NCBI GenBank assembly: GCA_029821735.1
Contig: JALGSU010000014.1
Span: 1 to 64,000, forward strand
Source of the DNA: Candidatus Zipacnadia bacterium
GTDB lineage: Bacteria; Armatimonadota; Zipacnadia; Zipacnadales; UBA5352
DNA length: 64,000 bases
Reading direction: 5' to 3'
Shown: in pieces, positions 42,907-47,247 of the stretch
Layout: each line of letters starts with the position of its first letter
How positions within the stretch are numbered: the stretch's first letter is position 1
Notes under the pieces: model-generated
Databases searched by the model: none
Seen by the model: the letters and a program-made list of their open reading frames with translations, nothing else
What the model was told of the DNA's origin: nothing
Position numbers and translations under genes: made by a program

Positions 42907-44874
42907 ATGAGCGCCCCGCAGACATCGGGCGCGGCGGACCTCGAACCCGCACCGAACGTGCCCGCGCTGACCATCCGCGCGGTCACGATCGCCTGCCTGA
43001 TTCTGCCGCTCAATGCCTACTGGATCACGCAGATGGCTGTTGTGCGCTACCAGGGCCACCCCACCACTGTCTCCCTGTTCTTCAACGCGGTCTTCATACT
43101 CTTCGTGTTGCGCGTGCTCAACGATGGCGTGGGCCGGATCGCGCCGCGACTCGCCCTGCACCGCGGCGAGTTGCTCGTGATCTACGCCATGGTCACACTC
43201 GCCTCCGCGCTTGTCGGCCATGACCTCGTGCAGGTACTCGCCCCGCAGATCATCATGCCTTACTGGCTCGCCACCGCCGAGAACCAGTGGGAGCAGCTCT
43301 TCTTCCAGAACATCCCCGCCCACCTGACCATCAGCGATCCCCAGATCTACCGCCCGGCCTTCGAAGGTGGCGCGACGCTCTACACCCGCGCCCGGCTCCT
43401 CGCCTGGCTGCCGCCGGTGGCAAGTTGGGGCGGCTTCCTCGCGGTCCTCGCCACGATGATGCTTGCCGTGAACTCCCTCCTCCGCCGCCGCTGGATGGAG
43501 CAGGAGAAGCTCACCTACCCGATCACCCACATGCCGCTCGAGCTCACCTCGCCCGACGCCGGCCTGCTGCGCAACAAAATGATGTGGATCGGCTTCGCGC
43601 TGGCCGCAGGCGTCGACCTCATCAACGGTTTCCACGAGCTCTGGCCCGCATGGCCGCTCATCAGTGTCCGCGTCGTCCACTTCGACGCCTTCATGCGCTC
43701 ATTTCTGATCGGCCACCCATGGTCTGCGCTGCGCGGGATGCGCATGTCTTTCTATCCATTCGCCATCGGCCTCGGGATGATGTTGCCGCTCGACCTCGCC
43801 TTCTCATGCTGGGCCTTCTACCTGCTCTGGAAGCTCCAGGCGCTGGCCAGCGCCATGCTCGGCCTCAATCGCCTCCCCGGCTTCCCATATGTCGCCGAGC
43901 AGTCCTCCGCCGCATACCTTGGCCTGGCTGGTTTCGCGCTGTGGATGGGCCGAGGCTACATCGGTGACCTCTTCCACGGTGTGCTGCGCGGGAAGAGCGA
44001 TGACGCTGGGGAGCCCATGGACTACCGCCTCGCTCTCATCGTCCTCGTTGCGGGCACTGCTCTGCTCGCCTTGTTCTCGGCGGCGCTCGGCATGTGGGCG
44101 TGGTTGGCTGTTGTCTTCTTTGTGCTGTACTTCGCCCTGTCCATTGCGGTCACGCGCATTCGTGCCGAGCTAGGCCCACCGGCCCACGATCTCCACCGAG
44201 GCGGCCCGGACCTCATCCTCACCAACATTCTCGGCACCGATCCCACGATGTTGCCCACCCAGCAGCTCACTGCGCTGAGCCTGTGTTTCTGGTTCAACCG
44301 TGCCTACCGCGCTCACCCCATGCCGGTGCAGCTCGAGGCCTTCCGCATCGCGGACAGCACGGGCATCAAGCAGTCGCACATGGCCATTGCGCTGACCATT
44401 GCGGCTTTCGTCGGTGTCTTCTCGGCTTTCTGGGCGCAGATACACTGTTACTACGCGTATGGCATTGCTGCGAAGATGAGTGGTGTCGCCACCACCTTCG
44501 GGCGAGAGCCCTTCACTCGTTTGCAGCACTGGTTGACGTATCCGCAGGGAACTGACTGGCCTCGCGTGGCGGCGTATGGGGTTGGCTTGGGCCTGACGTG
44601 GTTATTGATGTTCGCGCGCGTGAGTTTCGGCAGTTGGCCGATGCACCCGGTGGGTTACGCCATCTCGGGGAGTTGGTCGATGAACTGTTTGTGGATGCCC
44701 ATATTCATTGCATGGTTGGCGAAGCTTCTGATCACGCGGTATGGTGGTCATCGCGCGTTCATGCGAGCCATCCCGTTCGCATTGGGGATGGTCTTGGGCG
44801 AGTTCATAGTTGGCAGCCTCTGGTGCATTGTGGGGATCACGTTGGGTATCAGCACCTACAGCTTCTGGGTCTAA
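42907..44874 (+). CDS. DUF6785/DUF6784-type multi-TM transporter (OPT-like)
   Basis: 655 aa, >10 hydrophobic segments; RRWMEQEKLTYPITHMPLEL and RAELGPPAHDLHRGGPDLIL-type motifs. Confidence 0.75.
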   Translation: MSAPQTSGAADLEPAPNVPALTIRAVTIACLILPLNAYWITQMAVVRYQGHPTTVSLFFNAVFILFVLRVLNDGVGRIAPRLALHRGELLVIYAMVTLASALVGHDLVQVLAPQIIMPYWLATAENQWEQLFFQNIPAHLTISDPQIYRPAFEGGATLYTRARLLAWLPPVASWGGFLAVLATMMLAVNSLLRRRWMEQEKLTYPITHMPLELTSPDAGLLRNKMMWIGFALAAGVDLINGFHELWPAWPLISVRVVHFDAFMRSFLIGHPWSALRGMRMSFYPFAIGLGMMLPLDLAFSCWAFYLLWKLQALASAMLGLNRLPGFPYVAEQSSAAYLGLAGFALWMGRGYIGDLFHGVLRGKSDDAGEPMDYRLALIVLVAGTALLALFSAALGMWAWLAVVFFVLYFALSIAVTRIRAELGPPAHDLHRGGPDLILTNILGTDPTMLPTQQLTALSLCFWFNRAYRAHPMPVQLEAFRIADSTGIKQSHMAIALTIAAFVGVFSAFWAQIHCYYAYGIAAKMSGVATTFGREPFTRLQHWLTYPQGTDWPRVAAYGVGLGLTWLLMFARVSFGSWPMHPVGYAISGSWSMNCLWMPIFIAWLAKLLITRYGGHRAFMRAIPFALGMVLGEFIVGSLWCIVGITLGISTYSFWV

Positions 44875-44909
44875 CCCCCCGCCGTCCGTCGCCGTTGTCC
44901 TTGTCGTAT

Positions 44910-45876
44910 GGAGGGCGGGTCTTTCCTTGGGCACCGAAGCCTTGGCGAAGGTGTCAGACCCGCCGGTCGTTGGTCTTTGCCGTTCGTGGATGCGAAGCAT
45001 CCGCGAGGAAGGGCCGGATTATGTTTATCCGGCCCGGCTGTTCGGATTACACGCACGCGAACTCCATTCGTCAGCGTTCGTGCCATAGCTTCAGCGAAGG
45101 TGTCAGCCCCGCCGGTCGTTGCCCTCTGTCGTCTGGAGGGGCGGGGCTACGCCCCCGCCCTGCCGTTGCCGTTTGCCGTCCGGAGGGGCTGCGTTCCCAC
45201 GCAGCCCACTGGCCCACAGGGCCAGAGGCCGTCGCCGTTGCCGCGTGCCGTCTGGAGGGGCGGGGCTACGTCCCCGCCCTGCCGTTGCCCTTTGCCGTCC
45301 GGAGGGGCTGCGTTCCCACGCAGCCCACTGGCCCGAAGGGCCAGGCCGTCTGCCTCTGCCGTCGCCGTCTGGAGGGCCGATTCGTCAGAATCGGCCGGCC
45401 GTTGCCGTGGCCGTTCTGCAGGGCGGGGTCCTCGCCTGCCGACCGTAGCTTCAGCGAAGGTGGGTGCCCCGCCCTGCCGTTGCCCTTTGCCGTCCGGAGG
45501 GGCTGCGTTCCCACGCAGCCCACTGGCCCGAAGGGCCAGGCCGTCTGTTTCTGCCGTCTGCCGTCGCCGTCTGGAGGGCCGATTCGTCAGAATCGGCCGG
45601 CCGTGGCCGTGGCCGTTGCTTTGTGGTATGGAGGGGCGGGGCTACGTCCCCGCCCTGCCGTTGCCGTTTGCCGTCCGGAGGGGCTGCGTTCCCACGCAGC
45701 CCACTGGCCCGAAGGGCCAGGCCGTCTGCCTCTGCCGTCGCCGTCTGGAGGGCCGATTCGTCAGAATCGGCCGGTGGTGGCGTTGTGGTGGTGCCGTTGC
45801 GGTACGCCGTCAGGAGGGCGGGTCTTTCTCTGGGCACCATAGCTTCAGCGAAGGTGTCAGACCCGCCGGTCGTTGG
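44910..45876. repeat. Modular hairpin array: ~14 units with conserved flanks and different palindromic cores, bracketed by ~60 bp direct repeats
   Basis: GGAGGG (or GCAGGG) at 44910, 45135, 45182, 45254, 45301, 45371, 45418, 45496, 45573, 45630, 45677, 45747, 45813, each followed by a near-perfect inverted repeat and most then by CC-x-GTTG(CC). Confidence 0.9.
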
Positions 45877-45886
45877 CCGTTCCCCG

Positions 45887-45925
45887 TTGACATGCGGCAA
45901 TCCTTGTACCATACTAATTGCCGCA
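45887..45925 (+). promoter_or_regulatory. sigma70-like promoter overlapped by a 9 bp inverted repeat (candidate operator)
   Basis: TTGACA (45887-45892), 17 nt, CATACT (45910-45915); TGCGGCAAT (45893-45901) / ATTGCCGCA (45917-45925). Confidence 0.5.
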
Positions 45926-46161
45926 ACTAGCAGGAGAAGAACTCTCTCTCGATGACAGTTCATTGTTCCTGAGCATTCAGGCGCTAAGCCACACGTATGA
46001 TGTCTCGGCGGGACGGCTGTGCGCCCTGCGGACGCCTTCACCCGCTTGACGCTCACCACCAAACCATGAAGAGAAGTCCGACCGACCGGTAACGAACGCG
46101 CTGTATTGGCTATATCAATAGTAGGGACAGAGCATTCCCGTGCGGGCAAGGGGGAAGTGCG

Positions 46162-47247
46162 GTGCCAACACCTGTTGACGAAGCCAGACGCCTGATCGAG
46201 AACGGCCAGCCGCAGAAGGCCATCGAGATACTACGCCCTTACCTTGAGCAAAACGGGGATGACATCCACGGCTGGTCCGCACTGGCTGCTGCCCACTTCG
46301 GGCTTGAGCAGTGGGGCGAAGCGCGCAATGCCGCCGTCAGAACCATCGAGCTTGACCCCGACAACCCGCGCTACTGGTCCAACCTCGGAACTATCGACCG
46401 CAAGGCTGGATACCTGAAGAGTGCCTCGGAAGCGCAGCGCCGCGCGCTCGAACTCGATCCGCTGTCAGAGCAGGCCAACACTGAACTGCGCAAGCTCCGC
46501 AAACTGCGCACCACCCGACAGCCAGCCGCCACACGGCTATGGGCCCTCGGGATAGGGCTTGTCGTCGTCGTGCTGATCGTCGTCATGCTGATCATTGCCG
46601 GTCGTGCGAGCAAGTTGGGCGAAGACCTCAGAGAACCCGTTACGCTCGGGGCAATCCTGCCGGTACTCAGCGGAGACCAGTTGGTGGCGATTCGGGGCCA
46701 GGTCACGTCGTTCAGCTCGGGCCGGGCTTTTGGTCACCTAACGCTCAGGCCAGAGAAGTCTTCCGCCTCCGACATTGGCGAGGTGGAGGTGCTCTTGGAC
46801 GGATCCGCGCCCACGGTAGGTATAGGTGAGGATGTGGTTGTTGTTGGTGAGCTTCGCGTAGATCTTTACGGGACGCCCATAGGGAGCCCGACGTATGAGC
46901 TATCGAATGCCCACATCGGATCGGCAGCACAGGGACAGGAGATCGCGCCGCCTGCGGTCTTCCAGGCGCTGGTCTCAGTGGTAAGCCGCGGGCGGCCCGT
47001 TTCGTGTACGGGCGAAGTGCAAGGGGCGACGACCTTGTCCGTCCCTGATGTTGGTGATACGCCTTGTATTGATCTGCTGTGCTGGCCGTATGGTGCGTCT
47101 GAGCCGATCGAGGTCAACGTCTTTCTTGAGGATGGTCTGCCTCGGGGACTGGCGAAAGGAATGAGAGTGACAGCCGTCGGAGACGTAACATGGCTTATCA
47201 GTAATCCCGTAGTCGGTCTCGCCCTGCATCGCGCTAGGTTGGAGTAG
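46162..47247 (+). CDS. TPR-repeat single-pass membrane protein
   Basis: GTG start with RBS; N-terminal TPRs (GWSALAAAHFGLEQWGEARNAAVRTIELDPDNPRYWSNLGTI), TM segment LWALGIGLVVVVLIVVMLIIAG, C-terminal beta-rich region. Confidence 0.75.
   Translation: MPTPVDEARRLIENGQPQKAIEILRPYLEQNGDDIHGWSALAAAHFGLEQWGEARNAAVRTIELDPDNPRYWSNLGTIDRKAGYLKSASEAQRRALELDPLSEQANTELRKLRKLRTTRQPAATRLWALGIGLVVVVLIVVMLIIAGRASKLGEDLREPVTLGAILPVLSGDQLVAIRGQVTSFSSGRAFGHLTLRPEKSSASDIGEVEVLLDGSAPTVGIGEDVVVVGELRVDLYGTPIGSPTYELSNAHIGSAAQGQEIAPPAVFQALVSVVSRGRPVSCTGEVQGATTLSVPDVGDTPCIDLLCWPYGASEPIEVNVFLEDGLPRGLAKGMRVTAVGDVTWLISNPVVGLALHRARLE

Follow-up and report, generated by a model that had tools for sequence, protein, structure and literature searches.

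The analysed window, a 64-kb stretch of DNA, forms part of contig C10 of a 5.73-Mb, 86-contig MAG (completeness 86%), and one of its intergenic regions (44876-46160) hosts an array of hairpins. Fifteen head-to-tail hairpin units, together with small hairpins, run from 44910 to 45867 and fill most of the gap between two genes on the + strand (42907-44874 and 46162-47247). The first of these, directly upstream of the array, encodes a product that is hydrophobic as judged from its sequence, and has its closest relatives in 'Armatimonadetes' and 'Candidatus Zipacnadia' MAGs. An earlier note on this DNA had placed the units correctly and estimated about 14 of them in less than 1 kb; the count is 15 plus the small hairpins, as listed here.

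44905-44972 (core 44910-44964), + strand: Unit 1, type A, GTCGT-AT-GGAG-GGCGGGTCT-(33-nt structured loop)-AGACCCGCC-GGTCGTTG
44988-45002, + strand: small inter-unit hairpin, GGATGC-gaa-GCATCC
45011-45035, + strand: Unit 2, type D, GGGCCGGAT-tatgttt-ATCCGGCCC, with a degenerate tag GAGGAA; type D also surrounds the REP-associated tyrosine transposase (RAYT) gene of contig C59
45083-45113, + strand: Unit 3, truncated A-like unit (CCATAGCTTCAGCGAAGGTGTCAGCCCCGCC)
45135-45160, + strand: Unit 4, type E, GGAG-GGGCGGGG-ctacgc-CCCCGCCC
45182-45225, + strand: Unit 5, type B, two hairpins, GGAG-GGGCTGCGT-tccc-ACGCAGCCC-A-CTGGCCC-aca-GGGCCAG
45254-45279, + strand: Unit 6, type E
45301-45344, + strand: Unit 7, type B; a B-type pair also brackets the RAYT gene of contig C50
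45371-45396, + strand: Unit 8, type C, GGAG-GGCCGATTC-gtca-GAATCGGCC
45418-45477, + strand: Unit 9, type I, GCAGGGCGGGG-(loop with CCGTAGCTTCAGCGAAGG module)-CCCCGCCCTGC
45496-45539, + strand: Unit 10, type B
45573-45598, + strand: Unit 11, type C
45630-45655, + strand: Unit 12, type E
45677-45720, + strand: Unit 13, type B
45747-45772, + strand: Unit 14, type C
45808-45875 (core 45813-45867), + strand: Unit 15, type A, GCCGT-CA-GGAG-GGCGGGTCT-(33-nt structured loop)-AGACCCGCC-GGTCGTTG

Perfect stem-loops with arms of at least 8 bp and loops of 3-10 number 11 in the array, whereas 200 dinucleotide shuffles yield 0.3 on average and never more than 3; folding of the array as single-stranded DNA gives z = -6.5. 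The linkers between units are low-complexity GCCGTT/GTCGTT tracts, and GYCGT is ~11-fold enriched within the array. Shortly upstream, at about 44250-44500 and inside the gene at 42907-44874, the GC skew moves from about -0.12 to +0.15. The array may conceivably be a misassembly, an explanation opposed by the reappearance of identical unit types on dozens of contigs and in another MAG.

Common Borders and Changing Arms

The units share the layout GYCGT-N1-3-GGAG-palindrome-N-GYCGT (on the + strand here), in which the palindrome begins directly after GGAG and N is usually one base; sub-families A-I differ in their palindromes and have these borders in common. The flanks described earlier, GGAGGG before the inverted repeat and CC-x-GTTG(CC) after it, are real parts of this layout that can be put more exactly as G[C/T]CGT-N1-3-GGAG ahead of a G-rich stem, and as N-G[C/T]CGT directly past the stem. 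When the tetranucleotide between CGTNN and the hairpin was left free in a scan, GGAG was recovered 93 times and the next best foot twice, with no GT[AG]G among the feet listed. GYCGT stands at the 5' border in 104 of 105 elements, in a search that required CGT only rather than the full GYCGT. At the 3' border it lies one base past the stem in 67 elements and 18 bases past the stem, beyond the second hairpin, in 15 type-B elements, so that 82/105 carry it at a fixed offset, compared with 0/105 in the random-positions control.

Within a type the arms vary while the rest is conserved. Type B has arms CTGCG, TCGGA, TTGCA, TCGGG, CGGGG, CGGCG, CGGTG and others around a constant loop and tag. In a covariation analysis of 15 distinct rows (matches with at least 7/9 pairs, plus one added row from outside these matches), 97% of cells are paired and slid registers reach at most 44%; preselection of the rows for pairing biases the paired percentage upward, and the informative part is the double changes, with 25 cells changed on both sides compared with 7.7 after shuffling. 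The claim that arms change completely while pairing is kept is thus borne out by these double changes, and the arm covariation that the earlier note had wished to see is present. Type E, anchored by flank and loop only, retains all 8 pairs in 36 of 37 matches. Two related genomes extend the pattern: the type E arms of G004 differ from those of the genome studied here, and G001 retains the type-A loop with its arms replaced by GGGCCGGGCT/AGCCCGGCCC.

The loops of types A, H and I contain a nested module, CC[AG]TAGCTTCAGCGAAGG / CCGAAGCCTTGGCGAAGG (for example at 44934-44955 and 45443-45460), which has GTAG or ATAG at its foot, is common to several outer stems and is sometimes duplicated within one stem, giving 64-nt loops. 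It may derive from an older GTAG-type REP that GGAG units have taken up. The 'GTAG' of type-A loops (CCGTAGCTTCAGCGAAGG) is a less likely candidate for the true tag, being variable (ATAG, GAAG).

Occurrence in This Genome and in Relatives

The array is one of dozens of such hairpin clusters in the genome. BLAST places the units at 71 sites there, and the head shared by types A and F has 65 matches, the reversed pattern none. When up to one mismatch is allowed, this head occurs in 8 of 292 Armatimonadota genomes, of which four belong to the same family and two to the same order, the other two being more distant; within the family, cognate types that differ in their arms are common. The units that the earlier note had suggested seeking elsewhere are therefore carried by both this genome and its relatives. 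Copies are concentrated in few regions, with long stretches lacking any. A simple gene caller put nine elements inside genes, placements that for the most part look due to over-extended ORF starts. Several contigs (C3, C33, C66, C72, C55) end in or near an array, which indicates that the arrays fragment the assembly and that copy number is probably underestimated.

In a genome labelled as another family of the order (G026), contigs C535, C9 and C231 (L237-L239) carry near-identical unit types with the same polarity, reflecting either horizontal spread of the elements or bin contamination. A stretch of ~1.4 kb, probably a repeated gene, is found in several diverged copies beside hairpin units, both at L239 (C231 of that genome) and on contigs C45, C43 and C23 of the genome studied here.

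The exact A-type head was absent from viral contigs. No transposition event was observed and no clean pair of empty and filled sites was found, the single syntenic contrast (G001 against contig C72) failing to align in the gap. GTDB orthologs of the upstream gene, among those shown, have no array downstream, and the gene order around them differs, so that they provide no clean empty-site test. Among the papers searched, none deals with REPs in Armatimonadetes.

Associated RAYT Genes

The earlier reading of the array as a mobile or recombining palindromic family, with its advice to look for a RAYT/IS200-like transposase, is supported by three RAYT genes, each with GGAG-tagged hairpins alongside. 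A profile search of the genome identified them as the three Y1_Tnp genes (PF01797). Two score 90.8 and 87.5 bits against NF047646 (REP-associated tyrosine transposase, cut-off 80), and the third, at 78.4 bits, has YVLTN where Y...NP is expected; this motif reads YVLDNP in the RAYT of contig C50 and YILMNP in that of contig C4. The nearest solved structure is TnpAREP 4er8 for both RAYTs tried. The WQ..(Y/F)WDR..R stretch of the RAYTs resembles that of the GTAG-recognising subclasses described previously (PMC6006769), though the foot here is not GTAG.

The C50 RAYT (162 aa) is bracketed by an inward-facing B-type pair, the C59 RAYT sits in the midst of 12-13 arrayed D-type units, and a single tagged hairpin lies upstream of the C4 RAYT. 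Among 393 genes of 300-900 bases, only the C50 RAYT has an inward GGAGGGG pair within 450 bases. Tagged hairpins or inward pairs also accompany RAYT genes of relatives (L171, L174, L175, L176, L185, L186, L188), with inward GGAGGGG pairs at L174, L175, L186 and L188 and an inverted GGAG-hairpin pair at L176. The more distant IS200-like Y1 proteins of relatives mostly have no GGAG-tagged units alongside. For types A, C, E and F, this 86%-complete MAG yielded no cognate RAYT.

Strand Polarity

The elements are strictly oriented, a genome-wide polarity that is missing from the earlier note. Away from RAYT genes, GGAG lies on the locally C-rich strand in 104 of 104 elements on 25 contigs, none of them mixed; because copies that share a contig cannot be treated as independent, contigs are the proper unit of counting, which gives 25 of 25. 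Array units all point one way, and the exceptions adjoin RAYT genes. Among relatives, three contigs of G026 conform to the rule, arrays are mixed in G004, and no rule is evident in the weakly skewed G001.

Orientation was also compared with that of flanking genes at the 45 loci where both neighbours were called: 18 elements run against both neighbours, 12 run with both, 12 lie in convergent gaps and 3 in divergent gaps. The skew itself is regional, with third-position skew of + and - genes correlated at r = 0.88. Transcription was rejected as the cause of polarity, given that gene direction does not predict orientation and that the skew is regional. Elements are denser in strongly skewed regions (Spearman 0.37, p = 0.0015). 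On contigs C72, C50, C17 and C35 the skew climbs to about 0.2 with several sign changes, and elements lie mostly in the strongly skewed parts.

The location of dnaA at a minus-to-plus skew switch, and of the 16S gene and ribosomal L2 (the latter judged by the neighbouring stretch) on the G-rich strand, suggests that the G-rich strand is the leading one, an assignment made uncertain by the several sign changes of skew along contigs.

Discussion

The array is very probably a tandem cluster of REP-type, non-autonomous, single-stranded-DNA mobile hairpins tied to RAYT (Y1/HUH) transposases, with a layout, GYCGT-N1-3-GGAG-palindrome-N-GYCGT, that is new. The unit anatomy, the genome-wide copies, the compensatory arm changes, the linkage to RAYT genes in this genome and its relatives, and the strict polarity in this genome are direct observations; that the units spread by transposition, and what would have caused their polarity, we infer from them. 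GGAG occupies the place that the GT[AG]G guide has in canonical REPs, at the 5' foot, and the GYCGT direct repeats at the borders look like cleavage or target sites of the transposase.

Canonical REP/RAYT (TnpAREP) systems, BIMEs and REPINs (PMC2817692, PMC3116915, PMC3733652, PMC6006769, PMC8266576) similarly comprise short, high-copy, intergenic palindromes with a tetranucleotide at the 5' foot, several sub-families per genome and a RAYT gene bracketed by its own palindromes, and the RAYTs described here have the traits of the REP-associated enzymes (HUH, Y...NP, WQ REP-associated tyrosine transposase). In contrast to the canonical GT[AG]G foot, these units have GGAG and a longer bipartite border, GYCGT...GYCGT; rather than the inverted pairs of canonical REPs, or the alternating adjacent REPs of BIMEs and REPINs, they form mixed head-to-tail arrays of fixed orientation relative to GC skew; and most copies lack an identified cognate RAYT. 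With neither a GT[AG]G foot nor a BIME arrangement, they are filed as a variant and not as canonical GTAG REPs. The earlier view that this was not a named REP is thus right for the tag, GGAG in place of GT[AG]G, while the system as a whole works like RAYT/REP.

The REP feet known from the literature are GT[AG]G and, in class 3, CnGA, with GGAG absent from those that the text lists (PMC6006769). The class 3 TnpAY1 REPtrons of Planctomycetes, Acidobacteria and Proteobacteria likewise have REP-like high-copy structures and a non-GTAG foot (PMC6006769), but that foot is CnGA, whereas the RAYTs here carry the class 2 motif Y...NP (C50, C4) and the foot is GGAG. CGTC-tagged REPs (PMC3733652) also have CGT(C) near the hairpin, but as an unpaired foot with no transposase linked; here CGT lies 1-3 bases outside the GGAG foot and a RAYT is linked. 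IS200/IS605 elements (IS608, ISDra2) share the Y1/HUH enzyme, subterminal hairpins and fixed short border sites, and their coupling to the lagging strand is known (PMC6006769). Their non-autonomous derivatives have a fixed short site at both borders, as do the units here (GYCGT at the 5' border in 104/105 and at the 3' border in 82). Unlike IS200/IS605, the units contain no gene, no TnpB was seen beside the RAYTs, and each RAYT is present in a single copy. TIRYTs/TIRtrons feature GGGGWSAS terminal inverted repeats around the gene; the regions around the three RAYT genes display GGAG-hairpins. Integron attC arrays hold cassette genes between their sites, and the spacers of tens of bases found here are too short for these. 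The sole precedent that we found for replichore-polarised arrays is that of the GI/GIII tandem REP arrays of P. fluorescens SBW25, whose reported direction differs between the two sides of the chromosome, forward on one and reversed on the other (PMC3116915); that was a side remark on 11 arrays of one layout, whereas the rule described here holds for every dispersed element and array, across several types.

Other origins for the hairpins account for parts of these data. RNA elements (terminators, mRNA stabilisers or structured non-coding RNA) maintained by selection on transcripts would be intergenic, rarely found in divergent gaps (3 of 45 loci), stably folded and covarying in their arms, as the units are. 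Their orientation is nevertheless scattered relative to flanking genes while following regional GC skew without exception, loops and DNA borders stay constant as arms change, copies are tied to RAYT genes, and the few terminator-like sites are not made by unit stems; Rfam at gathering threshold returned no match for the array. We therefore regard an origin as RNA elements as very improbable. Selection on secondary structure, as proposed earlier, fits a DNA hairpin, and the independence of element orientation from that of flanking genes gives no indication of an RNA role.

The polarity could itself be selected, if the asymmetric tags serve some strand-tracking machine as KOPS- or Chi-like directional signals in the DNA and RAYT did no more than supply the copies. 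A perfect polarity (104/104) and the greater density where skew is strong (Spearman 0.37, p = 0.0015) agree with such a signal, which is very doubtful all the same, given that copies are clustered and absent over long stretches, unlike a dispersed guide motif, and that related genomes have the same tag without polarity. An origin by plain slippage or tandem expansion of GC-rich filler, in which chance or template switching produced the hairpins, is extremely unlikely: the low-complexity GCCGTT/GTCGTT linkers and the ~11-fold enrichment of GYCGT point in that direction, but borders common to different palindromes are not a slippage product, and units of the same types and with the same borders turn up repeatedly, on dozens of contigs as well as in other genomes, with linkage to RAYTs.

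If the units are indeed REP-type mobile hairpins, each RAYT lineage would recognise its own palindrome, and a unit would insert 3' of one GYCGT and end in another; landing behind GYCGT and ending in GYCGT would create a new landing place, and hence mixed head-to-tail arrays. Enzymes of the RAYT kind use folded single-stranded DNA as their substrate, and TnpAREP is specific for one of the two strands (PMC8266576). Polarity may arise if the transposase works on just one of the DNA strands and if that strand is accessible mainly on the lagging-strand template. A tagged strand that simply inserted into the lagging-strand template would give the opposite of the sign seen: with the G-rich strand taken as leading, the GGAG strand would lie on the leading-strand template, where it would rarely be single-stranded. 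Copies facing the other way would become accessible on the lagging-strand template in every round and could be cut or lost, leaving the survivors now seen; as the GGAG strand would lie on the leading-strand template, loss of the other orientation may explain the sign better than an insertion bias. A more specific proposal, that an Armatimonadota RAYT clade with a GGAG guide and GYCGT cleavage sites has, by strand-specific action at forks, sorted every dispersed hairpin into one replication orientation, is one that we advance tentatively and lean somewhat against; if true, the arrays would be a fossil record of fork direction and inversions.

The spread of REPs is a matter of continuing debate: its mechanism has been called poorly understood, and RAYTs are single copy (PMC8266576). 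Clear GYCGT borders, a guide changed by one letter to GGAG, several RAYT-palindrome pairs in one clade and strict polarity make REP spread testable, and open the questions of whether the lagging-strand template is where RAYTs act and whether a changed guide gives them new targets. These arrays also warrant a warning for annotation, as they produce long spurious ORFs and break MAG assemblies. Between 44598 and 45930, long open frames of 340, 414 and 232 aa cross the array as by-products of the repeats, and are likely prone to mis-annotation as proteins.
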